Of a stretch of 64,000 bases of DNA, positions 8,238-55,007 are shown piece after piece (the stretch's first letter is position 1; every line of letters starts with the position of its first letter). The stretch spans positions 496,001 to 560,000 of the forward strand of contig NZ_BCXJ01000003.1 in the NCBI RefSeq assembly GCF_001598215.1, read 5' to 3'. Position numbers and translations under genes: made by a program. Source of the stretch: Shouchella clausii (GTDB taxonomy: Bacteria > Bacillota > Bacilli > Bacillales > Bacillaceae_D). The notes beneath the pieces are model-generated. The model was not told where the DNA came from and ran no database searches. It was given only the letters and a program-made list of their open reading frames with translations.

Positions 8238-8258
8238 CTTGGCCTCCTGTTCCGATGC

Positions 8259-38592: not shown

Positions 38593-38595
38593 CAG

Positions 38596-38636
38596 CCTGT
38601 AGATAACGCGTTTCCCGCAAGCGTTTTCTATTTAGG
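38596..38636 (-). repeat. Minimal (ends-only) derivative of the dispersed element
   Basis: On the minus strand CCTAAATAGAAAACGCTTGC is followed after a few bases by CGCGTTATCTACAGG. These are the two ends of the full-length repeat with the interior gone; it could fold as a hairpin of about 15 bp. Confidence 0.5.
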
Positions 38637-38661
38637 GTAATGGTGTCAGACTTATTGGCAC

Positions 38662-39828: not shown

Positions 39829-39896
39829 TCCAATCACTCCTCTCGTATTAAAGTAGCCTCTTAGTAGTAGGTCATAACTTCTTCTTTCCACCAAGA

Positions 39897-39925
39897 AGCA
39901 TAGCTTGAAATTAAAAGGCTTTCAA
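39897..39925 (-). promoter_or_regulatory. Sigma-A promoter of the lipoprotein gene
   Basis: On the minus strand TTGAAA (39920-39925), 17 bases, then TATGCT (39897-39902), about 70 bp upstream of the start codon at 39828. The spacer contains a near-palindrome TGAAAGCCTTTTAATTTCA. Confidence 0.6.
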
Positions 39926-40434: not shown

Positions 40435-41013
40435 TTAGGACTGCAATGGCTTTGGACCGTACTTTTCCAACAGCCGTTGCTTAGACATAAACACGTACAT
40501 CGGGGAAGGGGTTTTCCGTGCTTTGGCGGGAAACTTTGACATGGAAAGCAAAAAAATCGGATGTTGCGATACCCTTTTTAACCCCTTATAAAAGCGATTT
40601 CGAATAGGGTGTGATTCAAACCCGAGTCGCTCACACCCCCTATTTAACATCGTTACGCCAATAATCCCTTTGATGTCCTTCGCATTGGCTTGCCTCTCTA
40701 TGTAAAAAGCAAGAGGAGGCATCGACTCTTTTACTTTTTGCACTAAAACTTTTGCCTTTTTTAAATCGTTATCAATGGCAAACAGTTCTTTAATTAAGCG
40801 AACATTGTGCAAGTGAATTTTTACGAGCACATCATTTTTGCAAATTTCCTGTCCATCTGCCAAACAGATATTCGGCCCTTTATAGCGAATTTGCTTGATT
40901 CGAAAAATGGTTGTATTGGTTTTCGCGCTTTCTGGATAATGAAGCCGGGAAATATAAAAATAAATTGGATCAAGCACACTCCAAGCTGATAAAAAGTATA
41001 GTTTAAATTTCAT
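40435..41013 (-). CDS. YkoP-like conserved protein
   Basis: A 192-residue soluble protein. The middle GPNICLADGQEICKNDVLVKIHLHN (split: DGQEICKNDVLVKIHLHN) is the pattern of the YkoP-like domain known from B. subtilis YkoP, where a small-substrate or membrane role has been guessed but not shown. C-terminal residues GCERLGFESHPI and FMSKQRLLEKYG are also consistent. The start is the ATG at 41013 (a GTG precedes it at 41016) behind TAGGAG. No related neighbours (polysaccharide deacetylase, glycosyltransferase) are present here. Confidence 0.6.
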   Translation of the reverse strand: MKFKLYFLSAWSVLDPIYFYISRLHYPESAKTNTTIFRIKQIRYKGPNICLADGQEICKNDVLVKIHLHNVRLIKELFAIDNDLKKAKVLVQKVKESMPPLAFYIERQANAKDIKGIIGVTMLNRGCERLGFESHPIRNRFYKGLKRVSQHPIFLLSMSKFPAKARKTPSPMYVFMSKQRLLEKYGPKPLQS

Positions 41014-41196
41014 CACGATCTCCTATTTGCCAATGGGGTCCTTTCAGACATTATGATGCGAAATAGGAAAGATGAATATAGATGGGAAATTTAGGGATGA
41101 TGCTGCCTTTCACCACATATGTTTACTCACGCCCTAGTAGCTAGGAGAACCTTTTTGTCATCAACTAAGACTTATGATTTTTTCAAATGCCAGTAG

Positions 41197-41232
41197 AAGC
41201 CTAATTTCTCCATTCAAAGAGAAATTAGGCTT
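41197..41232 (-). terminator. Perfect hairpin after the dehydrogenase gene
   Basis: A perfect 14-bp stem (AAGCCTAATTTCTC and its complement) with an 8-base loop lies 30 bp past the stop of the gene 41262-42311. The following T-run is poor, so termination strength is uncertain. Confidence 0.6.
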
Positions 41233-41261
41233 ATCATCTCACCTAAACAAAGACAACCGTT

Positions 41262-42311
41262 TTACAAGCTAATCGCCCGTTTCTGCTCAGAAGACAAATA
41301 AATGCCTTCCAACATTTTCATTAATTCTAGCCCGTCTTCGGCAGGAGCAGGAGAAGGGGCGCCGGTTAAGCACGCTTCCACAAACGCATCAACTTGTTTT
41401 TGGAACGCACTGTCAAAATGGAACGTGGGATGATCCAATTGCGGCTCAATGTTTAAAATCGTATTTTGTTCTTCTGCTACAAGCATCAGCTCTGGTTCGA
41501 GTTCAGCACCGCCTTTCGTTCCGAATAACTGCATAGAAAGGTGGTCTTTTTTTGTATGAAGAGAGTAAGAAACGTCAACCATAAGCGAGCTGCCATTTTC
41601 AAACGTTATTAAAGCATTAGCTAAATCTTCAACTGTATTCGTAGCTGCATCGTAGTCTGCCGTTTTGTAGAACGAAAGGTGCTCAATGTTGCTACGGTTT
41701 CCGAGTTTATCATAGACCTGGCCAGTTACACGTTCAACGTTTGGCCGTCCCATTAAGTACCAGCAACAGTCAATGATGTGGACACCTAAGTCAATAAGCG
41801 GACCACCCCCAGACAGCTCTTTATTCGAAAACCACCCACCAGGATTGCCGACGCGCCGCAAAAGCGAAGCCTTTGCATAATAAATATCACCAAGCTTTCC
41901 GTTATCAATGAACGTCTTCAGCACTTGCGCATTTGCCCCAAAACGGCGTACATAGCCGACTTGCAAGATCGTGTTCGCCTCCTGTGCTGCCGCTTGCACT
42001 TTTTTGGCCTCGGCGACTGTCAGCGCCAGCGGCTTTTCTACAAGGACATGCTTTCCTGCTTGGAGTGCCGCAACAGCCAAATCCGCATGTGTTTTATTCC
42101 AAGTGCATATGCTGACTGCATCGACATTCGGATCAGCAAAGACATCATCTGCGTCGGTAAATACGTTTGCCACGCCATAGAGCGCTGCCTTTTCATAGGC
42201 ACGCCCTTCATTGACATCACATAATCCATACAGCTCTGCGTTTGCATTGGCTGCGTACGATTTTATATGCATGTCGGAGATTGTCCCTAAACCAATTACC
42301 GCTACACGCAT
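41262..42311 (-). CDS. Gfo/Idh/MocA family dehydrogenase (inositol dehydrogenase-like)
   Basis: A 349-residue NAD(P) dehydrogenase. The Rossmann start is VAVIGLGTISDMHIKSYAAN, then VDAVSICTWNKTHADLAVAALQAG and HVLVEKPLALTVAEAKKVQ with EKP, and the catalytic His region GGGPLIDLGVHIIDCCWYLMG. The start (SD GAGGTGAG) overlaps the end of the isomerase gene by 10 bp, so the two are coupled. Such pairs oxidise and isomerise inositols or sugars. A link to the GDPD operon just upstream is possible but not shown. Confidence 0.87.
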   Translation of the reverse strand: MRVAVIGLGTISDMHIKSYAANANAELYGLCDVNEGRAYEKAALYGVANVFTDADDVFADPNVDAVSICTWNKTHADLAVAALQAGKHVLVEKPLALTVAEAKKVQAAAQEANTILQVGYVRRFGANAQVLKTFIDNGKLGDIYYAKASLLRRVGNPGGWFSNKELSGGGPLIDLGVHIIDCCWYLMGRPNVERVTGQVYDKLGNRSNIEHLSFYKTADYDAATNTVEDLANALITFENGSSLMVDVSYSLHTKKDHLSMQLFGTKGGAELEPELMLVAEEQNTILNIEPQLDHPTFHFDSAFQKQVDAFVEACLTGAPSPAPAEDGLELMKMLEGIYLSSEQKRAISL

Positions 42312-43225
42312 TCGTTGCTCACCTCCTCTGCCGTTACTTTCCAGCCATCTCGTGCAACCTCATTCCACAAACGCTTGACGTTATTCATAGCGATTCTCGA
42401 GCCGGTAAAGCAATCTTCCATCCCTTCAAATTCAATAGCGATGTAGCCATCATAATGATGGACTTTTAATAGGCGGATAATTTCTCGAATCGGCAATTCA
42501 CCGTGGCCGACAATGGCACCGCGCAAATAATTGCCGTTTACTGATCGAAACCATGGCCCTTCCCCGGGATTCTCATAGTATGGGCGCACATAAAAATCTT
42601 TAAAATGGACTGTCGCTGCATGAGGCAAATTTTTACGGATGCCAACAAGCGGATCTTCGTCTGCACAAAGAAAGTTGCCGATATCTAGCGTCGTTTTAAA
42701 GTTTTCCCGGTCTACAGCACGAAGCAGGCGCTGGACACGATCGCTTGACTGGACATTAAAACCATGATTTTCAATCGTTGTTGTCATTCCGTATTGTTTG
42801 GCATAATCGGCAATCAGCCGACACCCGCGTACCATCTCCTCAAAGTGGTCATCAAAATAATGAACTGTTCGCTGTTCCGGTGGTAGGGAAAACGCTGTTA
42901 CGTCGTGGCGCAATAGCTTAATGCCCATATGTTGGACGACATCGACATGTTTATGGATGCGTTCAACTTCTTCCTGAAAAGCTCGTTCCGTCGGCTGGAT
43001 GAAATTGGCCGGCATACAGTAGGCTGACAGCTCAATCCCTGTTTCCGCTGCTTTGTCTCTCAACTTCGTCGCCAGTTCGTAGTCATCTACAACCGAAAAG
43101 CCATAAGGGACGAGCTCCATATGGGCGCCGCCATTGTCGGCTACCCACTGAAGGGCGTCTACTATCGTGGTGCGTCCGTCTTTTAACGCTTGCAACAGGC
43201 TGTATGAACTCAATCCTACTTTCAT
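42302..43225 (-). CDS. Sugar phosphate isomerase/epimerase-like TIM-barrel protein
   Basis: A 307-residue xylose-isomerase-like TIM barrel. It begins KVGLSSYSLLQALKDGRT. Metal-binding candidates are Glu in TTIENHGFNVQSSDRV, Asp/His in LDIGNFLCADEDPL and TVHFKDFYVRPY, and Glu in GYIAIEFEGMED. The family includes IolE/IolI and sugar epimerases. The start follows GAAGGAG. It is the first gene of a two-gene unit with the dehydrogenase, 265 bp downstream of the GDPD gene on the same strand. Confidence 0.85.
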   Translation of the reverse strand: MKVGLSSYSLLQALKDGRTTIVDALQWVADNGGAHMELVPYGFSVVDDYELATKLRDKAAETGIELSAYCMPANFIQPTERAFQEEVERIHKHVDVVQHMGIKLLRHDVTAFSLPPEQRTVHYFDDHFEEMVRGCRLIADYAKQYGMTTTIENHGFNVQSSDRVQRLLRAVDRENFKTTLDIGNFLCADEDPLVGIRKNLPHAATVHFKDFYVRPYYENPGEGPWFRSVNGNYLRGAIVGHGELPIREIIRLLKVHHYDGYIAIEFEGMEDCFTGSRIAMNNVKRLWNEVARDGWKVTAEEVSNECV

Positions 43226-43490
43226 ATGCTTTTACACACTCCTTCGAATGGTTGGCGCTTCCCTCAAAGTCCGCTAAATGTCGCTATCAACTCCGGTACT
43301 GCTCTATAACAAGCATTTCCACTCCCGTATCAAAAACGTCAAAGCATTGGTTCCATTCGTGTATTTCGCCTAAAATGGCTAATTTCCTTTGGGAAATATT
43401 TGCTTTCCTTTTACACTTTTTTGTCGTTTAGGAATGACGCTTTTCACCCAGTTGCCCACTTCAGTTATTATTCCAAGATGTGCCAAACCG

Positions 43491-44192
43491 TTAGGCATGG
43501 TAGTTTTCTTTGAACAGCTCCAATTCGTTTACCGTACATAGCACGTCTGGCCTTTTTGCCATTCTTTTACACGCTTCTTTTGTGTCAACTGGCCAAACAA
43601 TGAGCTGATAGCCACGCTCCTTACACTCATCGGCAAAGGCCTCTGTATAGAAACGAAGCTCCATTGCAATGGAAGACGCCTGTATTTGTTCCATATAAGG
43701 AAACAAGGCTGGCGTTGCGTCACTTTTGATTAAGCCAATTTCCAAGTCGGGGGCAATCTCCCTCAACGTCCCCATCGATTCATGATTAAATGAATTGATA
43801 TAAACGTCATTGGCCATTCTTTTTTCCTCTATTAATGCGGCTACCTTCCTCTCTAACCGAGGATACATGTTCTCGTTTTGCTTTAACTCGATTGCGACGT
43901 TCACCTGCCCTTTTGCCAAGTCCAACACTTCCTCAAGTGTCGGAATCTGTTCGTTGCCGCTCGTTTTTAAACGGCGCAGCTCTTTTAATGTATAGGTGTT
44001 GATAAGGCCAGTGCCGTTGGTTGTACGATCGACCGTTTGATCATGCATAATGACAGGCACTTCATCACGGCTTAAGTGAACATCAACCTCAATATGGGAA
44101 AATCCAAGGTTTATACTTGCTTCATAAGCGGCAAGCGTGTTTTCAGGATACTTTGCGGAATAGCCTCTATGAGCAATTGCTTGTACGTCCAT
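43491..44192 (-). CDS. Cytoplasmic glycerophosphodiester phosphodiesterase
   Basis: A 233-residue GDPD that hydrolyses glycerophosphodiesters to glycerol 3-phosphate and an alcohol. The catalytic blocks are intact: AIAHRGYSAKYPENT (His-Arg and Glu), IEVDVHLSRDEVPVIMHD (Glu, Asp, His) and DRTTNGTG. There is no signal peptide. The frame's first codon lies inside the upstream permease gene; the ATG at 44192 after AAAGGGAGG is the start. It is the last gene of the operon HAD phosphatase-GlpP-permease-permease-GDPD, so it most likely acts on diesters brought in by that importer. Confidence 0.92.
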   Translation of the reverse strand: MDVQAIAHRGYSAKYPENTLAAYEASINLGFSHIEVDVHLSRDEVPVIMHDQTVDRTTNGTGLINTYTLKELRRLKTSGNEQIPTLEEVLDLAKGQVNVAIELKQNENMYPRLERKVAALIEEKRMANDVYINSFNHESMGTLREIAPDLEIGLIKSDATPALFPYMEQIQASSIAMELRFYTEAFADECKERGYQLIVWPVDTKEACKRMAKRPDVLCTVNELELFKENYHA

Positions 44193-44244
44193 TTTATTGC
44201 CTCCCTTTGTTCTTTTATGTTTATGGCGTTTAACCACGTTTTTA

Positions 44245-45123
44245 TTACCCTTTGATCGAACCAATCATGACACCTTTTACGAAAAAACGTTGCAAGAATG
44301 GATACAACACCAACATCGGCAAGCTGGCCACGACGACAACCGCATATTTTAAGCCTTCCACTGTTAAGGCGTGGTTGTCTAATGTCGAATCGCTGACTTG
44401 TACCATTTCAGACAGTTGGTCTTGGATCAGCATTTCTCTTAAGAACAGTTGAAGGGGGAAAAGATTTCTGTCCGTTAAATAAATCAATGCATCAAAAAAA
44501 GCATTCCACTGGCTGACGCCGTAAAACAAAACCATGACTGCAATCACGGGCTTGGACAACGGCAACAATATTTTGATTAGGTATTGGATGTTGGAACAGC
44601 CATCCAACTCCGCCGATTCCCGCAGTTCATTAGGAATATTTTGGAAAAATGTGCGAATAATAACGACATTGTACACCGATACTGCCCCAGGCACGATCAC
44701 TGCCCAAATCGTGTTCAACATCCCCAAATCCCGGACGAGCAAATAAGTCGGTACCATTCCCCCGCTAAAAAACATTGTAAAAACAAGAAAAATCGTCAAC
44801 GCATTTCGACCATAGAAGTCTTTTCGTGATAACGGATAGGCGACCATAATCGACAAAAGCAAATTGAAGGCCGTTCCTAAAGTCGTATAGAGAAAAGTAT
44901 TGCGAAACCCTATCCAGACGTCTTCATTTTGAAACACGCTTTTATAGGACTCGATCGTTGGATCGATTGGGAACAACCACAATTCCCCTCTTAAAATGGC
45001 TGCTGGATCGCTAAACGAAGCACTGAGCACATAAACGAGTGGATACAAAACGATTAATGTAATAAGCGCCACACACATGTAAACAGCTATACCAAAAAGG
45101 CGATCGCCTGTACTTTGTTTCAT
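44245..45123 (-). CDS. ABC transporter permease, LplC/YtcP type
   Basis: A 292-residue six-span permease with an EAA loop (ELRESAELDGCSNIQYLI) and the LplC hallmark YPLVYVLSASFSDPAAILRGE after helix 1. The end GVMIGSIKG is also typical. The start is the ATG at 45123, six bases after GGGGAGGA, rather than the longer frame from 45183 that invades the preceding gene. It pairs with the permease 45137-46084 and with the binding protein encoded divergently at 47883. No ATPase gene is adjacent. Confidence 0.9.
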   Translation of the reverse strand: MKQSTGDRLFGIAVYMCVALITLIVLYPLVYVLSASFSDPAAILRGELWLFPIDPTIESYKSVFQNEDVWIGFRNTFLYTTLGTAFNLLLSIMVAYPLSRKDFYGRNALTIFLVFTMFFSGGMVPTYLLVRDLGMLNTIWAVIVPGAVSVYNVVIIRTFFQNIPNELRESAELDGCSNIQYLIKILLPLSKPVIAVMVLFYGVSQWNAFFDALIYLTDRNLFPLQLFLREMLIQDQLSEMVQVSDSTLDNHALTVEGLKYAVVVVASLPMLVLYPFLQRFFVKGVMIGSIKG

Positions 45124-45136
45124 GTACATTCCTCCC

Positions 45137-46084
45137 CTACCACAAACTCGTCTGGCTTGTTTTCTTTGCTGTGTAATTGACAAGAATCAGAATAAAAAAG
45201 TTAATCGCTGATTCAAATAAGCCGATTGCTGCCGAATAACTGTATTGGGCTCCTGCGATTCCCGTTCGGTAAATATGGGTGGCGATCACGTCAGATGCTT
45301 CCATGTTCAGCTGGTTTTGCATCAAAAATACTTTTTCAAAACCAACGCTCACGATGCTCCCTGTCTGCAAAATCAGCAAGATGATGATCGTCGAGCGAAT
45401 CCCTGGCAAGTTGACATGCCAAATTCGCCTTAGGCGGCTGGCACCGTCGATTTTAGCGGCTTCGTGCAGTTGTGGGTCAATGCCAGCAAGAGCAGCCAAA
45501 TAAATGATCGAGCTCCAGCCCATTTGCTGCCACACATCAGAAAACACGTACGTTGTTTTAAACCATTCAGGCGAAGTCATAAAGGCAATTTCCGAAATAC
45601 CTAACAAGCCGAGAATCTGGTTAACGAGGCCATTAGGTGACAGCAGTAAAAACAGCATCCCTACGATAACGACAGTCGACAAGAAATGGGGCGCATACGT
45701 CACTGTCTGGACAAAACCCTTTGCTTTTTTATAACGAATCTCGTTAATAAGCAAGGCAAGAATAATCGGAATTGGAAAACCAATCACTAAGTTATAGAGG
45801 CTTAAACCGATCGTATTTCCAATCAAACGTTCAAAATAAAAACTTTCAAAAAACCGAATAAAATGTTCCCATCCGACCCATGGGCTCCCCCAAATTCCTT
45901 CGGCAGCGATAAAATCTTTAAAAGCAATTTGCACGCCGTACATAGGGTAATACTTAAAGATCAAAAAATAGATCACAACTGGAAGGACAAGCAAATAAAG
46001 ATCCCAGTTGCGTTTGATTCCATTCCATCTTCTTTTCGGCGGCGCTTTAAGCGGCTTTTTTGCCTGTTCAATGCGATTTTCCAC
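45137..46084 (-). CDS. ABC transporter permease, LplB type
   Basis: A 315-residue permease beginning at a GTG after TTAGGGGG. It has the LplB hallmarks YLLVLPVVIYFLIFKYYPMYG and VQIAFKDFIAAEGIWGSPW. The EAA loop is QLHEAAKIDGASRLRRIW, and it ends in the conserved NYTAKKTSQTSLW. It follows glpP by 11 bp and precedes its partner by 13 bp. LplB/LplC importers usually take oligosaccharides; here the linked GDPD and GlpP genes suggest glycerophosphodiesters, as an inference. Confidence 0.9.
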   Translation of the reverse strand: MENRIEQAKKPLKAPPKRRWNGIKRNWDLYLLVLPVVIYFLIFKYYPMYGVQIAFKDFIAAEGIWGSPWVGWEHFIRFFESFYFERLIGNTIGLSLYNLVIGFPIPIILALLINEIRYKKAKGFVQTVTYAPHFLSTVVIVGMLFLLLSPNGLVNQILGLLGISEIAFMTSPEWFKTTYVFSDVWQQMGWSSIIYLAALAGIDPQLHEAAKIDGASRLRRIWHVNLPGIRSTIIILLILQTGSIVSVGFEKVFLMQNQLNMEASDVIATHIYRTGIAGAQYSYSAAIGLFESAINFFILILVNYTAKKTSQTSLW

Positions 46085-46095
46085 AACAGTACCCC

Positions 46096-46626
46096 CTAAA
46101 TAATGCTAGCTGATACAGCTACTGCTCCTGCATGAAGCGCGCTTTCCATTTCTTGCTTTGTTTTAAACAATCCACCTGCTACAATTGGCACGGTAGTCAT
46201 TTCAACTAATTCCTTTATGACTCTTGGCATTAACCCAGGCATCGCTTCTACTGCGTCAGGCTTGATTTTGTTCACCGTTTGTACCGCTTTTTCCATTGCC
46301 TGTGTATCAATCAAAAATACACGCTGAATCGTCTTTAACCCACATTTTTTTGCCTGGATGATCGACTGGCTTCTTGTGCTAATGATGCCATCAGGTGCGA
46401 TCACTTCGGCGATGTAACGCATGCCATCAGGCGTGTGGCTTTCTATTCCAGAAATCAAATCGACATGGACGAACACTTTTTTATTCTGTTTCTGGAAACA
46501 ATAAACTTGGTCAGGCAGCAAATGCATCTTTCCAGTAAGCAAAAAAATCGTATCCACATTCGAATTACGGCACCTTTTTTCTTGTTGGCTGTCTGTCAGT
46601 GCATGAATAAACGGTTGCGTAAACAT
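46096..46626 (-). CDS. glpP: GlpP glycerol-3-phosphate-responsive antiterminator
   Basis: A 176-residue cytoplasmic RNA-binding regulator. It carries the GlpP signatures KKVFVHVDLISGIESH, APDGIISTRSQSIIQAKK, IQRVFLIDTQAMEKAV and PVIAGGLF-like VPIVAGGLFKTKQEMESAL. In Bacillus GlpP plus glycerol 3-phosphate prevents termination in the leaders of glpFK, glpTQ and glpD. Here the protein ends at ...AVSASII, about ten or more residues earlier than the B. subtilis protein. It lies inside an importer operon whose leader carries a matching terminator element (47457-47545). The bacterium probably has a second, canonical glpP elsewhere. Confidence 0.88.
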   Translation of the reverse strand: MFTQPFIHALTDSQQEKRCRNSNVDTIFLLTGKMHLLPDQVYCFQKQNKKVFVHVDLISGIESHTPDGMRYIAEVIAPDGIISTRSQSIIQAKKCGLKTIQRVFLIDTQAMEKAVQTVNKIKPDAVEAMPGLMPRVIKELVEMTTVPIVAGGLFKTKQEMESALHAGAVAVSASII

Positions 46627-46632
46627 ACGGCT

Positions 46633-47433
46633 TTACCCCTTTATTGTTTGATAGATCTCTTGAACAGATGCATAGACACTAGTTGGGTGATGAGCCGTAC
46701 CGAATAGCTGGTCTTTTGTTGTAACGCCTGAATAGACTAAAATGGTATCCATTCCTAATGCATTGCCGATTCCAATGTCACTTAACAACGAGTCCCCTAT
46801 GATTACCGCATTGTCTATCTTTCCTTCCATTACACGCAACAGCGCTTTTTGCATCCAATAAGATGGCTTGCCGACTGACACTGTCTGGTGGCCAAACCTC
46901 GGATGGTCTAACAATCGGGCCAAAGAGCCCGTATCAATTAAAAACCCTTTTGGATTCGGGCAGAGTAAATCTTCATTGAGCAAAATAAGACTCGCCCCGT
47001 TTTGAATGAGCCAAAGTGCTTCTTGCAATTGGCCGTACGTCAAATCAGGCGACATGCCAAGCACTACAGCTACCTGCTCCGACCCATTGCCCCTTTTACG
47101 GTCACCTATATGCAAACCTAGTTCAGAGAGCTCTTCTCTAATCATGTTCGAACCGGCCACATAAAGTTTCCTGCTTGCCAAGCCATTCGAGTGTACGTAC
47201 TCGACTAAGCCCATAACAGGGGTAAGCAACTGGTTATACGTAATAGCCAGCCCTAACTTTTGCAAATCAGCACTTAACACTTTCCTAGAGCGAACAGGAT
47301 GGTTCGTTAAAAAATAAACGTGCTTGCCGTTGGCGCATAAGGCATCGATTAGCTCCTTTGCCCCCGGCAAAAGCATGCCCCCGTGGAGCAATGTCCCATC
47401 CAAATCAAAGAAATAATGGCTGTATTGGTCCAT
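46633..47433 (-). CDS. HAD-IIA family phosphatase (NagD/AraL-like)
   Basis: A 266-residue sugar-phosphatase-type HAD hydrolase: motif I FDLDGTLLHGG with the nucleophile Asp, motif II FLTNHPVRS, a C2 cap domain at about 80-180, motif III Lys in SVGKPSYW, and motif IV GDSLLSDIGIG. The start is the ATG at 47433, six bases after AAGGAGG. First gene of the glycerophosphodiester operon, so glycerol 3-phosphate or a related ester is a plausible substrate, but the family is broad. Confidence 0.87.
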   Translation of the reverse strand: MDQYSHYFFDLDGTLLHGGMLLPGAKELIDALCANGKHVYFLTNHPVRSRKVLSADLQKLGLAITYNQLLTPVMGLVEYVHSNGLASRKLYVAGSNMIREELSELGLHIGDRKRGNGSEQVAVVLGMSPDLTYGQLQEALWLIQNGASLILLNEDLLCPNPKGFLIDTGSLARLLDHPRFGHQTVSVGKPSYWMQKALLRVMEGKIDNAVIIGDSLLSDIGIGNALGMDTILVYSGVTTKDQLFGTAHHPTSVYASVQEIYQTIKG

Positions 47434-47456
47434 GCCCATCCTCCTTTTTTCCACAA

Positions 47457-47545
47457 CAAAAAACCCTAATAAACGCTGGTACACGTAACATAGGACCAGC
47501 ATTTACAAGGGTTTTCTCATCGTCTCCACCCACATATGCAATTTG
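47457..47545 (-). promoter_or_regulatory. GlpP-type leader with antitermination hairpin (minus-strand operon)
   Basis: On the minus strand the leader reads CATATGTGGGTGGAG (from 47538), a short spacer, GAGAAAACCCT, then a long imperfect stem whose other arm ends AGGGTTTTTT at 47458. The inner stem AAATGCTGGT / ACCAGCGTTT is paired throughout, including one G-U. The T-run abuts the HAD gene's ribosome binding site, so the terminator must be relieved for expression. The 5-prime motif and stem base are shared with the leader at 47771-47842. Confidence 0.75.
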
Positions 47546-47649
47546 CACCTTTTCCCTTTTAGTATAGAAAAGGAATGTTAAGACAGAGTGAAACTGTCAT
47601 TAAGATTTAAAGGCCGCCATCAAGCATGCGTTCACAATGTTGTTCTTTT

Positions 47650-47678
47650 AAAATAATTGAATGCGTTTTCTTTGTCAA
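47650..47678 (-). promoter_or_regulatory. Promoter with internal cre site for the minus-strand operon
   Basis: On the minus strand TTGACA (47673-47678), 17 bases, then TATTTT (47650-47655). The spacer contains a cre-like site (plus strand TGAATGCGTTTTCT, 47658-47671, two deviations), so CcpA could occlude RNA polymerase. This would add carbon control to the GlpP control in the leader. Confidence 0.6.
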
Positions 47679-47720
47679 TGACTCGTTCATTCAATTTGCT
47701 TATTATTTACAATCTTTTAA

Positions 47721-47749
47721 TTGACATTGGCCTGTATTTGGCAGATAAT
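47721..47749 (+). promoter_or_regulatory. Sigma-A promoter of the divergent binding-protein gene
   Basis: TTGACA (47721-47726), exactly 17 bases, then GATAAT (47744-47749). Transcription should begin near 47756, giving a leader of about 125 bases before the coding region. Confidence 0.8.
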
Positions 47750-47770
47750 ATGGCGTAACAACGATTCATA

Positions 47771-47842
47771 TACGGGTGGAGTATTTCTGGAGAAAACCCT
47801 AATTAGCGCCAAGAACCGATGGCGTTAATTAGGGTTTTTCTG
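47771..47842 (+). promoter_or_regulatory. GlpP-type leader with antitermination hairpin (plus strand)
   Basis: The leader has CATATACGGGTGGAG, a spacer, GGAGAAAACCCT, and then an 18-bp stem (AAAACCCTAATTAGCGCC, 47793-47810, with 47821-47838, one G-U pair) and a 10-base loop. A T-run follows at once. It is a textbook terminator sitting between promoter and gene. The upstream GGGTGGAG and the stem base match the leader of the divergent operon that encodes GlpP. Confidence 0.8.
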
Positions 47843-47882
47843 TGTATATGAGCGAACTTAATTGATTGGGGGATACGTCGTT

Positions 47883-49490
47883 ATGACTAAAAAGCAATGT
47901 TTGTTGATCGCTGTGGCCACATTAGGAGTAGCTACAACAGCATGTGCGAACGCTGGGGAGGATACAGCGACAGAAAGCGAAAACAAAGACATCGTTAATG
48001 AATCAGGGTTTCCGATTGTGAAAGAGCCGATTGAATTGACGTTTTTTACTGGCAAATCAGAACCAAACTCGAACAACTTTGAGGAAACATACGTATGGAA
48101 AACGTATGAAGAAATGACCGATATGAAAATTAATTTTGAGCTTGCCGCTTTCGATGGACTAGCGGAAAAACGGAACTTGCTATTTGCAAGCGGCAACTAT
48201 CCTGATGCCTTTTATTCGGCTAGACTGACCGCAAGTGATTTGGCCACGTATGGTGAGCAAGGTATTTTAATCCCGCTAGACGACTTAATCGAAGAATATG
48301 CGCCTAATTTTAAAGCTGTGCTAGACAAACATCCCGATTTACGCAAAGGACTAACGATGCCAGACGGACACATTTACTCGTTCCCATCCTATTACGACCC
48401 CGATTTTTTGCCGATGCTAATTGGTGTACCGCTATGGATAAACGACGAGTGGCTCGACGAACTAGGGATGGATCGGCCAACGACGACAGATGAATTTTAT
48501 GACTATTTAACGGCAGTAAAAAACACGCCAGAATTAGCTGAAGGAGAAATTATTCCGTTTTCAGGCACAAATATGACAGAAATTCGCGGACAGCTTCAAG
48601 GGGCTTGGGGATTTGGCAACCGTGGCGTTGGCCATAAATTTATTGACGTCGACCCGGAAAATGAGGGAGAACTGCGCTTTTTCCGTACCGACCCAAAATA
48701 CAAAGAGTTTCTCGAATACTTGAATAAACTTTATACGGAAGAGCTGATCGATCCTGAAGTTTACACACACGATAGTGCTCAACTGCTGGCGAAAGGAGCT
48801 GAAGGACGAATTGGCGCTGTCATAACGAGCAACCCAGAATCATTAATGAATCAAGAACACTATTCTGGCGGTGAAGCGTTAGAAGGCCCACACGGTGATA
48901 AGTTGTACAGCCATGTCAAACCACCTCTTGTCCATGTCGGCGCATTCGCGATTACTGACAAAAATGAGCACCCTGAAGCGACCGTTCGGTGGATGGATTA
49001 CTTCTTTGGCGAAGAAGGCGCTACTTTTTATTTCATGGGCAAGGAAGGAGAAACGTACACGAAACAGGAAGACGGCTCCCTTGAATACACGGAAGAAATT
49101 ACCGACAACCCTGATGGTTTGACGCAAGACCAAGCATTGGCATCGTACATTACTTGGCTTGGCGGCAGCTATCCTGGCTATGTGCAAGAACACTATTTTA
49201 AAGGCTCAGAGTCGCTGCCAAATTCAATTGAAAATGGTGAAAAAGCCGCGCCAAATGCCCCTGAAGAAATTTGGAATGCTTTTAACTACACAAGAGAAGA
49301 GCAACAATTCCGCGATTCTGTCGGTGCCGACCTTGAAACATTCATCAACGAAACAGAAGACGCCTTCATCACTGGCAGAAAACCATTAAGCGAATGGGAA
49401 GATTATGTCGCTCAAGTCGAAGCGATGGGCTTGGAAGAATATATGTCGATCCAGCAAGCCGCCTATGAGCGGTACCAAGAAGTCGATTAA
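47883..49490 (+). CDS. LplA-type extracellular solute-binding lipoprotein
   Basis: A 535-residue binding protein of the large LplA class: FFTGKSEPNSNNFEETYVW after the N-terminus, then LFASGNYPDAFYSARLTASDL, LIPLDDLIEEYAPN and SFPSYYDPDF. The signal peptide is short (LLIAVATLGVATTAC) with an imperfect lipobox (TTAC). The start is the ATG at 47883 after GGGGGA. It is monocistronic and faces the operon that encodes the two LplB/LplC permeases. Shared leader elements imply joint control by GlpP. Ligand probably a glycerophosphodiester, by context. Confidence 0.88.
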   Translation: MTKKQCLLIAVATLGVATTACANAGEDTATESENKDIVNESGFPIVKEPIELTFFTGKSEPNSNNFEETYVWKTYEEMTDMKINFELAAFDGLAEKRNLLFASGNYPDAFYSARLTASDLATYGEQGILIPLDDLIEEYAPNFKAVLDKHPDLRKGLTMPDGHIYSFPSYYDPDFLPMLIGVPLWINDEWLDELGMDRPTTTDEFYDYLTAVKNTPELAEGEIIPFSGTNMTEIRGQLQGAWGFGNRGVGHKFIDVDPENEGELRFFRTDPKYKEFLEYLNKLYTEELIDPEVYTHDSAQLLAKGAEGRIGAVITSNPESLMNQEHYSGGEALEGPHGDKLYSHVKPPLVHVGAFAITDKNEHPEATVRWMDYFFGEEGATFYFMGKEGETYTKQEDGSLEYTEEITDNPDGLTQDQALASYITWLGGSYPGYVQEHYFKGSESLPNSIENGEKAAPNAPEEIWNAFNYTREEQQFRDSVGADLETFINETEDAFITGRKPLSEWEDYVAQVEAMGLEEYMSIQQAAYERYQEVD

Positions 49491-49495
49491 ATGAC

Positions 49496-49621
49496 CTAGA
49501 CTAATAGAAAACGCTTGTCAGCCGAGGCGCGAAACCGAGTGAAGATGCGAATAGAACGTGGGTTCATGAGCATATGAATGAGGTGAGCAACGAAGGATGC
49601 GAGCGTTTTGCTATAGTCTAA
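49496..49621 (+). repeat. Full-length copy of the dispersed inverted-repeat element
   Basis: This 126-bp element begins CTAGACTAATAGAAAACGC and ends GCGTTTTGCTATAGTCTAA. The ends are imperfect inverted repeats and the interior carries GAATAGAACGTGGGTTCAT and GAGCAACGAAGGATGCGAGC. It starts five bases after the binding protein stop. No flanking target duplication is evident. Confidence 0.7.
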
Positions 49622-49642
49622 GCCTCGCCTGCGGCGGGGCTT
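49620..49642 (+). terminator. GC-rich terminator-like hairpin
   Basis: A 10-bp stem (AAGCCTCGCC / GGCGGGGCTT, one G-U) with a 3-base loop abuts the repeat element. It probably ends the binding protein transcript; the T-run (AAGTTGTTTTCG) is loose. Confidence 0.55.
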
Positions 49643-49752
49643 AAGTTGTTTTCGATACAGATTGTGGCCAATTCCGTTTATTGCTGATAAGCGAAACCCT
49701 TGGTATGCTTTCTTTAACCACGGCTTTTGGCAAAGAAAGAAGGGACTGATGG

Positions 49753-50925
49753 ATGGAATCTGACTGTACATGGAAAGTTTGGCGAACATACGGGTGGCGG
49801 GCCACACTTTTGATCGGAACGGAATTCTTTTTGACGTTCAGCTTTTTTATGTTTGTTCCTTATATTTCGTTGTACGTTACTGGCGAACTTGGCTATTCCC
49901 TTAGCTTTGCCGGTTTGCTGCTGGCACTTCGTTTAACGGGCCAGCAAGGGTTTATGATGTTCGGTGGCTATTTAGGCGATAAGTTTGGCTATAAAGCGAT
50001 GATGTTTATTGGCTTTGTATGCAGAGGCGCTGGATTCGCTGGCATCGGATTCGCCCAGTCTCCTGCTTTGCTGTTGTTTATGGCCGTAATTGGCGGTCTT
50101 GGAGGAGCTTTGTTCAGCCCAGCACTGAAATCTTTATTGATTTACAAACAACCGAAAGCGCATCATAAAAAGTTGTTCTCTTACGTAAATATTACGGGCA
50201 ATGCTGGTACAATTCTCGGCCCCTTATTTGGCGTGTTGTTTTCAGCGCAACAATTTCCGCTTCTTAGCTTGCTTTCCGGGCTTTTGTTTATTCTAATTGG
50301 TTGTACATTGTTAGGGCTGCCGATCCAACAAGAAACAGCAAATAGCGACATTTCGTTCTTATCTGGATTGAAACAAATTGTCGCCAATCAGCCGCTTTTA
50401 ATGATGATTGGGCTGATGATCCCTTATCATTTTATTCACCAGCAATTGTTTTTAACTTATCCCGTCGTTGCGACAAAGATGAGCGGCAGCTCAGGCTGGA
50501 TCTTTACACTTGTCACTGTGATTGTTATCGCGACACAAATGAAAGTAACAGCGTGGACATACCGTTTCACCGCTCGCCAATCGCTCCAAGCAGGTTATCT
50601 GATACTTGGAACGACGTTTTTGCCGCTGCTTGCCTTTGAACATGTCGTTACGCTTACAGTCTCATTGATGGGCATTGCCTTATCGGTTACACTGATGCAG
50701 CCCACCTTTCACTCCTATATAGTCAGCCAAGCTTCTGCGCAAACGCTTGGCATTTTTCTCGGCTTTTCCAATCTTGCCATGGCTGTTGGCGGCGCCCTTG
50801 GCAACATTACTGGCGGCAGCCTCTACGAATGGTTCGAAACCAATCGCTTAGGTGGCTTCTATTGGGCTATTCTTGCGCTACTGTCTTTTATTGCTTATTT
50901 AACAGCAAAAACGCAAAAACATTAA
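49753..50925 (+). CDS. MFS transporter (drug-efflux-like)
   Basis: A 390-residue 12-span major facilitator protein with loop 2-3 GGYLGDKFGYKAMMFIG and the antiporter-like motif C region NAGTILGPLFGVLF in helix 5. This motif points to export by proton antiport rather than uptake. The ATG follows AAGGGA. It lies alone between two repeat elements within the glycerophosphodiester island, but no link to that pathway is evident. Confidence 0.82.
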   Translation: MESDCTWKVWRTYGWRATLLIGTEFFLTFSFFMFVPYISLYVTGELGYSLSFAGLLLALRLTGQQGFMMFGGYLGDKFGYKAMMFIGFVCRGAGFAGIGFAQSPALLLFMAVIGGLGGALFSPALKSLLIYKQPKAHHKKLFSYVNITGNAGTILGPLFGVLFSAQQFPLLSLLSGLLFILIGCTLLGLPIQQETANSDISFLSGLKQIVANQPLLMMIGLMIPYHFIHQQLFLTYPVVATKMSGSSGWIFTLVTVIVIATQMKVTAWTYRFTARQSLQAGYLILGTTFLPLLAFEHVVTLTVSLMGIALSVTLMQPTFHSYIVSQASAQTLGIFLGFSNLAMAVGGALGNITGGSLYEWFETNRLGGFYWAILALLSFIAYLTAKTQKH

Positions 50926-50930
50926 ACCCG

Positions 50931-51085
50931 TACTATAGCTTCTTCCTACAAGCTCCGTCAGAACGAGGAAAGATGGGAATAGAACGGGGGTTCATGAGCA
51001 GCGGTCCTCTTGCGCATAAAACGACAGTTTCAAAGCATATGACCGAGGCCAACGACGAAGTATGCGAACGTTTGTCTAAAGTCTG
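50931..51085 (+). repeat. Diverged long copy of the dispersed element with an insertion
   Basis: The core GAGGAAAGATGGGAATAGAA, GGGTTCATGAGCA and the right end ATGACCGAGGCCAACGACGA to TTTGTCTAAAGTCT match the other copies. About 40 extra bases lie in the middle and the left end is badly eroded. It fills the gap after the MFS gene. Confidence 0.6.
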
Positions 51086-51107
51086 AAGGCGGCATCAAAG
51101 CCGCCTT
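51086..51107. terminator. Bidirectional terminator between convergent genes
   Basis: A perfect 8-bp stem AAGGCGGC / GCCGCCTT with a 6-base loop and a T-run (CCTTTTCT) on the plus strand. It separates the MFS gene (+) from the second GDPD gene (-). Confidence 0.75.
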
Positions 51108-51110
51108 TTC

Positions 51111-51866
51111 TCATATCATTCCATCACGCAAAGCAATGGCACGGCCAGGATAGTCTGTCATGATCGTGCCTACCTCTTTCGCTAGCAGCTGCCGTATTTC
51201 TTGGTCTTGGTTAGCTGTCCAGGCGCGGGTAACGGAAAGCAATCCTTCCTGCTCAAAGGCATTTCCTTCGGTTAAAAGAATCTTTTTGTCGACATGGAGC
51301 GACTCAAATTGAAAGCAGCTCATGTAATCAGCTGCCAACGGCAAATTGACGTTAAGCAACCACGCAATATTAGCGGTTTTGTTAAGCTGTTTGAGCCTTA
51401 AAAGCATCGGCAAGTGAAAAGAAGAATAAATAATTTTCGTTTGACTTCCCCAAGCCTGGACGGTTTCGAGCACACGGCGCTCGATTCCTTGGTGTTTCGC
51501 TAAATGTGGCTTCAGCTCAATATTGGCTTCGGTACCGAACGGCGCAAGAAAGCAAAGCACTTCTTGTAAAGTCGGAATCCGTTCCTGATCCCAACTCGGT
51601 TCATATTCAGGGAAGTTGTTGAAACGGCAGCCTGCGCTTAATGCCTTAAGCTCATGCAACGAATAATCGTGCACGTAGCCTGTGCCATCGGTCGTCCGAT
51701 CTACCGTGTCATCGTGGATCACGACAAGCTCCCCATCTTTCGTCACCTGAATATCCAGTTCCACCCCGTCTGCGCCTTGTTCTAGGGCTGTTTGAAAACT
51801 TAGCAGCGTGTTTTCTGGATGTGTTCCCATTGCGCCGCGATGGCCATAAATGTTTGTTTTTTTCAT
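51111..51866 (-). CDS. Cytoplasmic glycerophosphodiester phosphodiesterase
   Basis: A 251-residue GDPD with intact active-site blocks: YGHRGAMGTHPENT, VELDIQVTKDGELVVIHD and DRTTDGTG. No signal peptide. The start is the ATG at 51866 after AAAGGA; an upstream frame to 51956 overlaps the binding protein gene and is rejected. It is the last gene of the ugp-like operon (56116 to 51111), the usual arrangement where diesters taken in by UgpBAEC are cleaved inside the cell. Confidence 0.92.
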   Translation of the reverse strand: MKKTNIYGHRGAMGTHPENTLLSFQTALEQGADGVELDIQVTKDGELVVIHDDTVDRTTDGTGYVHDYSLHELKALSAGCRFNNFPEYEPSWDQERIPTLQEVLCFLAPFGTEANIELKPHLAKHQGIERRVLETVQAWGSQTKIIYSSFHLPMLLRLKQLNKTANIAWLLNVNLPLAADYMSCFQFESLHVDKKILLTEGNAFEQEGLLSVTRAWTANQDQEIRQLLAKEVGTIMTDYPGRAIALRDGMI

Positions 51867-51912
51867 TCTTATTTTTCCTTTCCCCAGAACGGATCGCTTC
51901 CCTTGTTTGATT

Positions 51913-53241
51913 TTATGAATCGCCGCGCGCTTTATTCGCTTGCTCAATCGCCGCATTCACTTGTTTGACCGCTTCATCAAACGCTGTTTGCGCGTCTGTG
52001 CCATTAAACACATTTTCGAGTGCTGTCTCTATGATTTTTCGTTCTTCTGGAATCATATCCATAAGCGCTCCTTGTGTAGCAACAGACTTTTTCGTCGATT
52101 GGAGTTGCTGCACGGCTGTTTGCAGCTGAGGCATGTCTTCATATGCCTCCTGTACCACTTGTTCGTTATAAGCGTCAGGATTGATGGCAAAATAACCGGT
52201 TCCGACATGCCATTCAGCTTGCACTTCTGGCGTCGCCAAATATTTCATAAAGTCCCAGGCCGCCTCTTGCTCGGCTTCCTCTTTGCCGCTTGACATCCAT
52301 AAGCTCGCTCCGCCAATGACTACACCCTCACGCTCTACTTCTTCGGAGTGGGGAATAAAGGCAACGCCTACTTCAAACGGGGCATTGTCAATGACATCTC
52401 TAGATGTGGCCGACGATTGCATAAACATGGCGACTTCTCCTGCCAAAAAGCCAGCAACCATGTTGTCTGAATTGGTGCCATAATTCATAAACGTGTCTTC
52501 TTCAATCATTCGCTCAACCCACTCAAAAATCGAGCGGCCTTTGTCATTGTCGAATGCCACTTCAGTAGCGACATCGGCCCGTCCATTTTCATTGTTTAAC
52601 AAATGCCCCCCTTGGTTGGCCAACAACTCTTCGAACAGCCATCCATATGCTTGTAAAGCAAAACCTTTCATGCCTTCATTGGCTTCGGCGATTTTTTTGC
52701 TTGCTTCTTCGATGTCTTCAAATGTTTCTGGCGGACTTTCAGGGTCTAATCCAGCCGCTTCAAACGCATCCTTGTTGTAATACATGACAGGAGTTGAAGA
52801 ATTAAATGGCATCGAATAAAATTGGCCATCAATATGATAGTAATTGATAATATTTTCTTCTAAACCGCTCATGTCATATCCTTCTTCATCAATGAACGGT
52901 TGAATCGGTACAATATTGCCGCTGTTAATCATCGACATTGTGCCAATCTCCTGCACTTGGATAATGGTTGGCGCTTCCTCCGTCCCACCAACGCTATGAA
53001 ATTTCGGCAACGATTCCTCGTACGTGCCTTGGAACTCGGCATTTACGTGGACTTCATCCTGTGACTCGTTATAAGAAGAGACGATTTGATCAAGGGCAAC
53101 CTGTGCCTGTCCTCCCATTGAGTGCCAAAAAGTGACAACGGTTTTGTCGCTCTCTCCCCCGCTTGTTCCCCCTGAACTGCCACATGCGGCTAACATGACA
53201 AGCGCGGCGGCGCTGCTAAGTAGTCCAATTCCCTTTTTCAT
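51913..53241 (-). CDS. ugpB: UgpB-type glycerol-3-phosphate/glycerophosphodiester-binding lipoprotein
   Basis: A 442-residue binding protein with a lipoprotein signal peptide (LLSSAAALVMLAAC, lipobox LAAC). The mature start VVTFWHSMGGQAQVALDQIV matches UgpB, as do SFPKFHSVGG-like ESLPKFHSVGGTEEAPTI and MPFNSSTPVMYYNKDAFE. The ATG at 53262 lies on the AAAGGAG site; the ATG at 53241 is preferred. Encoded 3-prime of its permeases, 46 bp before the GDPD gene. Substrate is glycerol 3-phosphate or its diesters by family. Confidence 0.88.
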   Translation of the reverse strand: MKKGIGLLSSAAALVMLAACGSSGGTSGGESDKTVVTFWHSMGGQAQVALDQIVSSYNESQDEVHVNAEFQGTYEESLPKFHSVGGTEEAPTIIQVQEIGTMSMINSGNIVPIQPFIDEEGYDMSGLEENIINYYHIDGQFYSMPFNSSTPVMYYNKDAFEAAGLDPESPPETFEDIEEASKKIAEANEGMKGFALQAYGWLFEELLANQGGHLLNNENGRADVATEVAFDNDKGRSIFEWVERMIEEDTFMNYGTNSDNMVAGFLAGEVAMFMQSSATSRDVIDNAPFEVGVAFIPHSEEVEREGVVIGGASLWMSSGKEEAEQEAAWDFMKYLATPEVQAEWHVGTGYFAINPDAYNEQVVQEAYEDMPQLQTAVQQLQSTKKSVATQGALMDMIPEERKIIETALENVFNGTDAQTAFDEAVKQVNAAIEQANKARGDS

Positions 53242-53262
53242 AAAAAAACACTCCTTTTTCAT

Positions 53263-54081
53263 TTATTTAAGCGCTCCTTCAGCTAGGCCTTGCTGCAATT
53301 TCTTCTGGCCGAGAAACAGCAAGATTAGCGTCGGGAGAATCACAATGACTGCCCCTGCCATGACAACGCCCCACTGGTTTAACGTTTCTTGCGATTGCAA
53401 TTGCTTTAAGCCAATTTGCACAGTCCGGACGGTGTCATCAGTAGTGGCAAGAAGCGGCCACAAATACATATTCCAAGAAGTCAGAAAGCCATAAATGCCA
53501 AGTGTGACAAGGCTTGTACGTGCCATCGGCAAGACAACCGTTAAATAAAACTTAAAGTCGCCCATTCCTAAAATTTCACTCGCCTCTTTTAGCTCAACGG
53601 GAATTTGCTTAAACGTCTGCCGCAGCAAAAATGTCCCAAATGCCATCGCAAAAAACGGCAATGTCAAACCAGGATACGTATTGACAAGCCCTAATTCACG
53701 GATCGTCTGGAAATTCGGAATGATCGACGCTTCAAACGGAATCATCATCGTCGCCACAAATAAAAAGAACAGCATATCCCGGCCTTTAAACGTTAAGAAC
53801 ACAAACGCATAAGCAGCTAAGCTTGATAGAATCAGTTGGCCGACCATAATGACGAGCGAAACAATCAAACTGTTCAACAAGTAATTCAACAGCGGAAACC
53901 GTTGAAACGCTTGAATATAATTGTCGAACGTCCACACCGATGGGATCACTTTACCTGTCAGTGTGTCTGCACTTGTCATAAAACTCATCAAAAATGCTAA
54001 AATCGCTGGTGCAAATAGCACAAAAGCAGAAACGGTGAGAAGCAAATAAAAGAGAAGCTTTTTACGCCATGTCAACGTCAT
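53263..54081 (-). CDS. ugpE: UgpE-type ABC transporter permease
   Basis: A 272-residue six-span permease with an EAA loop (ELKEASEILGMGDFKFYL) and FAPAILAFLMSFMTSADTLTG after helix 1. It overlaps the UgpA-type gene by 4 bp and is followed by the binding protein gene after 21 bp. It forms the membrane channel with the UgpA-type subunit. Confidence 0.88.
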   Translation of the reverse strand: MTLTWRKKLLFYLLLTVSAFVLFAPAILAFLMSFMTSADTLTGKVIPSVWTFDNYIQAFQRFPLLNYLLNSLIVSLVIMVGQLILSSLAAYAFVFLTFKGRDMLFFLFVATMMIPFEASIIPNFQTIRELGLVNTYPGLTLPFFAMAFGTFLLRQTFKQIPVELKEASEILGMGDFKFYLTVVLPMARTSLVTLGIYGFLTSWNMYLWPLLATTDDTVRTVQIGLKQLQSQETLNQWGVVMAGAVIVILPTLILLFLGQKKLQQGLAEGALK

Positions 54082-55007
54082 TGGTAATGCACCTTCTTTT
54101 CGCCAAGCTTAAATTGCACGATCGTCATAAGCAAGATGATCGCAAACAACACAACTGCTTGCGCACTGGCGGTTCCATATTGGTAATTGACAAAAGCTTC
54201 CCGATAAATGGAATAAACGATCAAGTTCGTTTCATTTTGCGGTCCACCTCTAGTGAGCATGTCAATTTGCCCAAATGTCTGGAACGCATTAATCATGGTG
54301 ACAGTGACAACAAAAAACAGCGTCGGCGATAACATTGGAATGGTAATCCGCCTTAATTTGTAAAAATAGCTGGCGCCGTCAATATCGGCACTTTCATACA
54401 AGTAGCGGTCAATGGACTGCAAACCGCCTAACAAAATGAGGAATGTAAAGCCTATATTCATCCAAATCGTTGAGACAGAAACAGAAAATAACGCCCATTT
54501 CGGATCTGTTAGCCATCCGATTGAGCCGACGTTGAGCCAGCCAAGCAGCTGGTTCAAAAAACCGATGCTAGGATGGAACAAAAACAGCCAAAATACAGAT
54601 GCTGCCGCTACTGATATGCCCATCGTCGAAGAAAACACCATCCGAAATATACCGATTCCCCTTAGCCGCTCATTGGCGATAATAGCCAAAAACAAACTGA
54701 TGAGAATCGTTCCTGGCACCGTGTAAAGCACAAATAAAAAGGTCGATGTGAGTGATTTTAAAAAAAGATCTGATGTAAAAATACGCATGAAATTCTCGAA
54801 ACCGACAAAGACCGTTGCCATTCCGCGGTTATCTGTCAGAAAGAAACTTAAATACAACGTCCGTATCATTGGGTAAAACAGAAACACAGTAAACAAAAAC
54901 AAAGAAGGAAATAAAAACAGCATGCCTTTGGCAAAATGCCTCGTACTGCGTTTTCCTTTTTTCGCGGTGCTTGTCTGTTCAGGTACATAGACATACGGTT
55001 CCGTCAT
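54078..55007 (-). CDS. ugpA: UgpA-type ABC transporter permease
   Basis: A 309-residue permease with six spans and an EAA loop (YLYESADIDGASYFYKLR). The helix-1 block LFPSLFLFTVFLFYPMIRTL is typical of UgpA/MalF types. The start overlaps the ATPase gene stop by 4 bp. Together with UgpE, UgpC and UgpB homologues it makes a complete importer, the only one in this window with its own ATPase. Confidence 0.88.
   Translation of the reverse strand: MTEPYVYVPEQTSTAKKGKRSTRHFAKGMLFLFPSLFLFTVFLFYPMIRTLYLSFFLTDNRGMATVFVGFENFMRIFTSDLFLKSLTSTFLFVLYTVPGTILISLFLAIIANERLRGIGIFRMVFSSTMGISVAAASVFWLFLFHPSIGFLNQLLGWLNVGSIGWLTDPKWALFSVSVSTIWMNIGFTFLILLGGLQSIDRYLYESADIDGASYFYKLRRITIPMLSPTLFFVVTVTMINAFQTFGQIDMLTRGGPQNETNLIVYSIYREAFVNYQYGTASAQAVVLFAIILLMTIVQFKLGEKKVHYQ

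Follow-up and report, generated by a model that had tools for sequence, protein, structure and literature searches.

Two divergent GlpP-type leaders at an ABC importer locus of Shouchella clausii and their probable link to a GlpP paralogue

The window analysed here (64,000 nucleotides of Shouchella clausii, contig NZ_BCXJ01000003.1, positions 496,001 to 560,000) contains two divergent transcripts with the genes of an ABC importer (Table 1). The minus transcript carries, in this order, genes for a HAD-IIA phosphatase, the GlpP-family protein GlpP2, two permeases and the glycerophosphodiester phosphodiesterase GDPD1; the plus transcript carries the gene for a binding protein. The mechanically called reading frame of the HAD gene starts at 47502, inside a terminator, and the ATG at 47433, preceded by AGGAGG, is the likely start. 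The HAD phosphatase belongs to a class with various named substrates in the PDB. GlpP2 matches PF04309 over residues 7–174 (194.1 bits, cut-off 27) and the structures 3kts (E 8e-29) and 1vkf (E 1.2e-15). The two permeases score far under every NCBIfam cut-off listed, and fail the Ugp equivalog cut-offs (UgpA, 73.1 bits against 335; UgpE, 52.5 bits against 297). The binding protein has PDB matches to 5g62/5g5y and AlgQ1/AlgQ2 and is AlgQ-like, not UgpB-like. No ATPase gene was seen in the minus operon; a UgpC-type ATPase gene lies at 55004–56116 in the neighbouring Ugp-like operon (454.6 bits, cut-off 432).

Table 1. Features of the two divergent transcripts in the window
Feature	Position	Strand	Basis
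Glycerophosphodiester phosphodiesterase GDPD1	43491..44264	-	PF03009, E 1.9e-43
ABC importer permease (BPD_transp_1), predicted LplC-type in the original prediction	44245..45183	-	Best NCBIfam match GlcU, 63.2 bits, cut-off 340
ABC importer permease (BPD_transp_1), predicted LplB-type in the original prediction	45137..46084	-	Best NCBIfam match UgpA, 73.1 bits, cut-off 335
GlpP2, paralogue of the G3P-responsive antiterminator GlpP	46096..46626	-	PF04309, E 1.6e-57; tree
HAD-IIA phosphatase, first gene of the operon	46633..47433	-	TIGR01460, 127.9 bits, cut-off 100.15
GlpP-type leader of the HAD-glpP2 operon	47458..47541	-	Sequence, covariance model, folding
Four TTNAYA-like hexamers, 11-nt period, Pho-box-like, upstream of the HAD-glpP2 leader (candidate only)	47565..47603	-	
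Candidate promoter TTGACA-17-TATTTT of the HAD-glpP2 transcript (candidate only)	47650..47678	-	Promoter scan
cre-like site overlapping the minus-strand TTGACA (candidate only)	47657-47671		Match to cre consensus
Sigma-A type promoter TTGACA-17-GATAAT of the binding-protein transcript	47721..47749	+	11/12 consensus bases
GlpP-type leader of the binding-protein gene	47764..47839	+	Sequence, covariance model, folding
Extracellular solute-binding protein	47883..49490	+	PF01547, PF13416

Several other features lie nearby. A GC-rich palindromic stretch, perhaps a terminator or repeat element as judged by eye, follows the binding-protein gene (49490–49660). A second glycerophosphodiester cluster (51111–60278) contains GDPD2 and UgpB-, UgpE-, UgpA- and UgpC-like genes and, divergent from these, a gene for a protein of 1246 aa that combines three LTD stretches with a GDPD domain. 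At 41262–43225, 265 bp after GDPD1, are genes for a xylose-isomerase-like TIM barrel and a Gfo/Idh/MocA oxidoreductase; among 11 compared regions this pair occurs in L051–L053 only (L and G numbers denote loci and genomes of the analysis), and it might process the alcohol freed by GDPD. At locus L056, a second binding protein (7333–8904; 52.7% identical to that of the window) is encoded inside the operon, between permease and GDPD.

The gap between the divergent genes (47433–47883) contains two divergent leaders. Each consists of GGGTGGAG, a spacer (8 nt on the plus leader and 5 nt on the minus leader), GAGAAAACCC and a long stem ending in GGGTTTTT, followed by the first gene. On the plus leader, GGGTGGAG is at 47774–47781, the second GAG at 47790–47792 and ACCC at 47796–47799, and the T run reaches 47839; on the minus leader, the same elements are at 47531–47524, 47518–47516 and 47512–47509, and the T run reaches 47458. 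The GAG period is not equal in the two (11 and 8 nt). The pattern GGGTGGAGN{3,14}GAGAAAACCC matches twice in the window and never in 100 dinucleotide shuffles. Folding of each leader RNA gives a long stem with the T run at its end (-32.2 kcal/mol, z -4.56, for one and -32.8 kcal/mol, z -3.96, for the other), and 0 of 200 shuffles per leader are as good. A simple terminator scan restricted to loops of 3–8 did not list either stem, so the stems rest on reading and folding. Between 38000 and 56000, no riboswitch or other Rfam family reached its gathering threshold, and E values up to 1 gave just two microRNA families in 47400–47900, far below their cut-offs. The position between promoter and first gene and the presence of a terminator would suit a riboswitch or another RNA already described; given the lack of an Rfam match at threshold in 38000–56000 this reading has a negligible chance, as far as families in Rfam are concerned.

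Twenty-six distinct GGGTGGAG leaders were collected from this and other genomes, of which 23 are in set A1 and, with near-copies left out, 21 in set A3, from which the covariance model R2 was built. In these 21 leaders, GGGTGGAG, GAGA and AACCC are invariant and the stem inside ACCC varies with compensation. The terminator stem is paired in 94.2% of cells, and 57 cells are changed on both sides versus 18.0 in shuffles; counted as stem pairs with any two-sided change, the excess disappears (8 versus 7.1; 176 of 500 shuffles as good), for a tested stem that was written from one alignment row. The leader terminator is near certain, and the paired GAG repeats are certain as conserved sequence.

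The original prediction put a promoter ahead of each leader. This holds for the plus strand, where the TTGAC of the promoter is kept in 5/5 rows of the Shouchella alignment. On the minus strand, the candidate lies ~120 nt upstream of the leader and not directly before it, and the promoter scan as a whole yielded three promoter-like sites versus a shuffle mean of 3.8, i.e. not above chance. Shouchella genomes largely conserve the cre-like site at 47657, and the Pho-box-like repeats agree with the general consensus at 21/24 positions, a score reached by 2/200 mononucleotide shuffles. Hexamers with an ~11-nt period, reached by at most 2/200 shuffles, occur upstream of seven of eight HAD-glpP2 leaders (that of the window included; also L052, L054 and L056–L059), at a distance from the leader that is not constant. 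The eighth upstream region (L055) has no such repeats (43/200 shuffles as good), and the same holds for all five binding-protein sides, whose scores are reached by 19–137 of 200 shuffles. These candidate sites would set phosphate and carbon control ahead of the GlpP2 switch.

GlpP2 is one of two PF04309 proteins above cut-off in the genome. The other is encoded at C5:125022–125540, directly after glpK-glpD, and shares 37% identity with GlpP2 over residues 21–174. A maximum-likelihood tree was built from 53 GlpP proteins of the collected loci, all distinct and 150 aa or longer. It separates a canonical group of 19 from 34 others (support 100/100), and GlpP2 falls outside the canonical group, in a separate group on a long branch; it is not an orthologue of the glpF/K/D-linked regulator. 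The canonical group consists of 18 rows labelled by glpK or glpD plus L170, which lies beside glpT. Among the 34 others, 29 are near ABC, GDPD or HAD genes, one (L186) is near HAD and glpD, and four have none of the queried genes nearby in the fetched piece; these labels come from tblastn within each fetched locus, and locus lengths differ. Three cautions apply to this tree: the leader motif was used to recruit the Paenibacillus rows, long branches come together, and clustering is inflated by near-copies. Rows recruited by protein similarity alone also show the ABC/GDPD/HAD association (L028–L032, L043 and L044; L039 does not). Twenty-four positions are near-invariant in both groups, and Shouchella GlpP2 stops short of the last residues of canonical GlpP. 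By identity and tree position, the glpP gene of the window is a paralogue, not the glpK-glpD-linked regulator. As predicted, a leader precedes the operon holding glpP; this glpP is the paralogue.

We also compared the two leader classes across the whole genome. R2 finds the minus leader at E 4.4e-17 and the plus leader at E 4.6e-15, its only full-length matches; a third row is the complement of the plus terminator stem. R1, a model of glpD leaders, gives one significant match, the glpD leader (E 1.8e-8; next 0.317), and does not find the window leaders. Neither model matches the target of the other in this genome. No GlpP-type leader was seen by eye at the glpK of this genome, R1 gives glpD only, and neither model finds a leader in the 51111–60278 cluster, including its Ugp-like operon (51111–56116) and the LTD-GDPD gene. 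Two other GGGTGGAG matches, at C3:614445 and C8:30907, lie in or beside coding sequence, have no R2 match and were rejected. Judged by the two models, the window leaders are a class apart from the glpD leader of their own genome.

Across 41 genomes of the family, R2 matches with E <1e-14 occur in exactly ten, those with a GlpP2 orthologue of at least 57% identity. If genomes were independent, the chance of this co-occurrence would be 1 in 1.1e9; they are not independent and come from three genera, and eight of the ten contributed rows to R2 training, which leaves the absence from the other genomes as the informative result. Of the other 31 genomes, eight have weaker matches (best 4.5e-10 in G018 and 4.0e-6 in G014; the rest 1.6e-4 to 0.009). 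In Shouchella, seven of 13 genomes have both GlpP2 and strong leaders and six have neither at that level; all seven have both leaders of the divergent pair (on two contigs in G037). Conservation in related genomes is supported, within the genomes that have GlpP2. Non-canonical GlpPs of G006, G007, G025 and G026 have no accompanying R2 match, which, like the failure of R1 to find the window leaders, speaks against a single leader family; near those of G025 and G026, an R1 leader-like stretch precedes a UgpB relative (30.5–31.6 bits).

This distribution bears on two alternatives. The leaders could be driven by the GlpP of the glpK-glpD locus, with GlpP2 redundant or a modulator, since both proteins belong to PF04309 and both leader classes have paired GAG repeats. 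However, all 41 genomes have a GlpP-family match and strong GGGTGGAG leaders occur only alongside GlpP2, and R1 and R2 do not cross-match in this genome, which makes this alternative unlikely. Alternatively, the stems could work independently of GlpP, as ordinary attenuators or as insulators that separate the divergent genes. Terminator stems alone do give weak, partial R2 matches (e.g. positions 21–84), but plain attenuators account neither for the invariant GGGTGGAG, GAGA and AACCC around a compensating stem nor for the co-occurrence with GlpP2, and we consider this reading very improbable. The leaders are a genuine GlpP-type double switch that is conserved, and the protein driving it is most likely a dedicated GlpP paralogue.

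R2, whose training set is confined to GGGTGGAG leaders, also picks up those of glpD (L186 and L187) and glpT (L170; TIGR00712, 792.8 bits, with a cGlpP-like gene upstream), which supports a similarity to leaders of known GlpP target classes; the kinship runs in one direction only, as R1 misses the window leaders. Among 70 glpD upstream regions of the taxonomic order of the window, 53 have an automatic leader call (that of L150 is wrong), and 49 of these 53 have an 8-nt GAG period. The other 17 are not scored as absent, and some show the motif by eye (e.g. L098, L120). The called leaders mostly have the form cGGTY-GGAG-N4-GGAG-A-GACC or a near form, so that in both classes two GAG repeats are accompanied by a 5' arm and by a 3' arm that also serves as the first terminator arm. 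Without L150, L127, L133 and L094, the pool comprised 48 distinct leaders, and 36 of them were used for A2/R1.

The arms found are GGGT/ACCC, GGTY/GACC and GTC/GAC, GATC/GATC in the glpD leader of this genome, and AATC/GATT (L090), CGGT/ACCG (L155) and GGGT/GCCC (L172). In the GGGTGGAG class they never vary. We assembled 90 leaders (52 canonical, 23 GGGTGGAG and 15 chosen by eye from 30 R2 loci), which give 74 distinct arm pairs. A helix of at least 3 contiguous pairs is possible in all 74 with G-U allowed, and in 72 without; for several leaders (e.g. L111, L112, L123 and L165) the best helix is in another register. When arms were permuted over all classes, 0/2000 permutations reached the observed total (z 5.2, relatedness ignored). 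Within the 47 canonical pairs (172/2000 as high) and within the 13 other R2 pairs (358/2000 as high), pairing is not above permutation. It is likely that the two GAG repeats framed by short arms, with the 3' arm doubling as terminator stem, form an antiterminator helix.

Scanning 84,980 species genomes with the pattern gave 27 stretches, versus ~0.7 expected in uniform random sequence: 16 in Paenibacillus, three in Shouchella, two in Bacillus sp. JCM 19041, one each in Alkalihalophilus, Halalkalibacterium, Bacillus sp. SD088 and a Bacillota bin, and two taken as chance. The latter, in Elusimicrobia (L080) and Treponema (L087), lack all of the queried genes and are not part of the leader set. 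A glpP-family gene is present in the fetched piece of 21 of the 27 stretches; L082 and L086 have none before the piece ends, and L084 and L085, with no glpP nearby, were kept as leaders. In Paenibacillus, the order glpP, leader, GDPD, HAD occurs in 12 of 16 pieces, and L063 and L071 have permeases 34–42% identical to those of the window just before glpP. Bacillus sp. SD088 has one leader ~380 nt before glpP2 and another after it.

R2 matches at E up to 0.01 occur in 99 of 398 genomes of the class, with an unreliable tail; matches were inspected up to an E value of about 1e-6, many above that value being partial stem matches. Among the best 30 loci inspected, the first downstream genes are HAD (13), SBP_bac_6 or phnS-like binding protein (5), GDPD then HAD (4), glpP (2), glpD (2), UgpB-like (1) and glpT (1), with two lacking an assignment; these loci are interdependent, as L159–L164 repeat training leaders or near-copies and 15 of these roughly 30 come from one genus (g101). 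Four of the loci (L169, L174, L184 and L185; 1662–2744) have a phnS2-like binding protein behind a GlpP-type leader (172.7 bits for L169, cut-off 392.75; the other three 82–93% identical), and L174 has glpK just upstream. At L172, the gene after HAD codes for a Lamin Tail Domain protein and is cut by the locus end. Elsewhere in the class, similar leaders stand before Ugp-like, phnS-like, GDPD and HAD genes; this means that the wiring is not unique and that the arrangement is wider than was thought in the original prediction.

To describe the wiring of the importer as new was an overstatement: its feedback logic is that of glpTQ in B. subtilis, and GlpP-type leaders precede importer, GDPD or HAD genes in other genera. 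In Bacillus subtilis, antitermination by GlpP at glpD, glpFK and glpTQ was reportedly described by Glatz et al. in 1996 and 1998. Like this B. subtilis system, the window has a PF04309 protein and leaders with an intrinsic terminator and, as judged via the glpD leaders of its order, a pair of GAG repeats that lies within the terminator's 5' arm or immediately ahead of it. Unlike it, the window has (i) a GlpP paralogue whose gene is part of the operon that it would control; (ii) leaders with GGGU/ACCC arms and GAG periods of 8 and 11 nt; and (iii) an ABC importer with GDPD and HAD phosphatase as target. The Ugp importer is a further point of comparison. In Halalkalibacterium (L057), Alkalihalophilus (L058) and G010 (L059), the leader-HAD-GlpP2 operon continues with two permease-like genes, a UgpB relative (49–52% identical to that of the window) and GDPD, whereas in Shouchella the leader operon holds another importer and the Ugp-like operon has no such leader. 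LicT/SacY/BglG differ from the window system in protein family, RNA motif and input, and HutP and TRAP belong to another protein family than GlpP2, the window leaders having only two repeats.

Three GlpP promoters are named in B. subtilis, with a terminator and a GlpP site in the 5' untranslated region (PMC9604022), and the antiterminator is bound by GlpP carrying glycerol 3-phosphate (G3P) (PMC7430163). LicT/SacY/BglG bind an antiterminator hairpin that competes with a terminator (PMC7430163), and HutP (PMC7430163) and TRAP (PMC4027176) recognise leader RNA by its NAG or (G/U)AG repeats. For B. cereus, both a glpPFKD cassette and a Ugp importer are noted, with no link drawn there between the two (PMC4896439); glpP and ugp genes appear in a table (PMC6958937), and the Glatz papers are cited in PMC3997798 and PMC9604022. 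By title or abstract start, no publication among those listed ties GlpP leaders to ABC importers, in a collection with few subscription papers and hence no proof of absence.

We consider it probable that the two leaders are GlpP-type transcription switches serving GlpP2, encoded in the minus operon, with antitermination triggered by G3P. Without ligand, each nascent leader would fold into its intrinsic terminator, and transcription would stop short of the HAD gene on one side and of the binding-protein gene on the other. G3P, made by GDPD1 from imported glycerophosphodiesters, would bind GlpP2, which would then grip the two GAG repeats. The GGGU arm could now pair with ACCC, which is also the 5' arm of the terminator; with ACCC taken up, the terminator could not form. 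Readthrough would yield importer, phosphodiesterase, phosphatase and GlpP2 itself. In this scheme, we infer GlpP2 as the acting protein, G3P as its ligand, formation of the GGGU/ACCC helix and an importer that carries glycerophosphodiesters.

GlpP2 might instead act on the leaders and sense a compound other than G3P, e.g. another polyol phosphate or the imported diester itself. The long-branch group of GlpP2, the AlgQ-like rather than UgpB-like binding protein and a HAD of a class with various named PDB substrates are consistent with this. We regard it as doubtful, given the GDPD in the same operon and in relatives, the UgpB-like importers that take the place of the importer in other genera, and the kinship of the leaders to those of glpD and glpT. 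We tentatively raise a broader possibility: (i) GlpP2 and its relatives may head a second Bacilli GlpP regulon for glycerophosphodiester scavenging, with Lpl-, Ugp- and phnS-like ABC importers, GDPD, HAD phosphatase and secreted LTD-domain proteins; (ii) its RNA code, GGGU/ACCC arms around two GAG repeats, may be insulated from canonical GlpP; (iii) in Shouchella, Halalkalibacterium and Alkalihalophilus, the regulator operon may also need a phosphate-starvation regulator at its promoter, a two-key lock of low phosphate and glycerophosphodiester present; and (iv) the paired GAG repeats with an arm borrowed from the terminator may be the general GlpP target.

The conserved element, i.e. two GAG repeats and a closing arm common to the terminator, provides a specific target for tests of binding and mutation, and the pair of paralogues with two leader classes in one genome is a natural test of specificity. 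If, as is probable, the switches are driven by GlpP2, the machinery for uptake and breakdown of glycerol-phosphate compounds would be made only when these compounds are present. This suggests a role for such importer operons of Shouchella, Alkalihalophilus, Halalkalibacterium and Paenibacillus in scavenging glycerophosphodiesters and perhaps phosphate.
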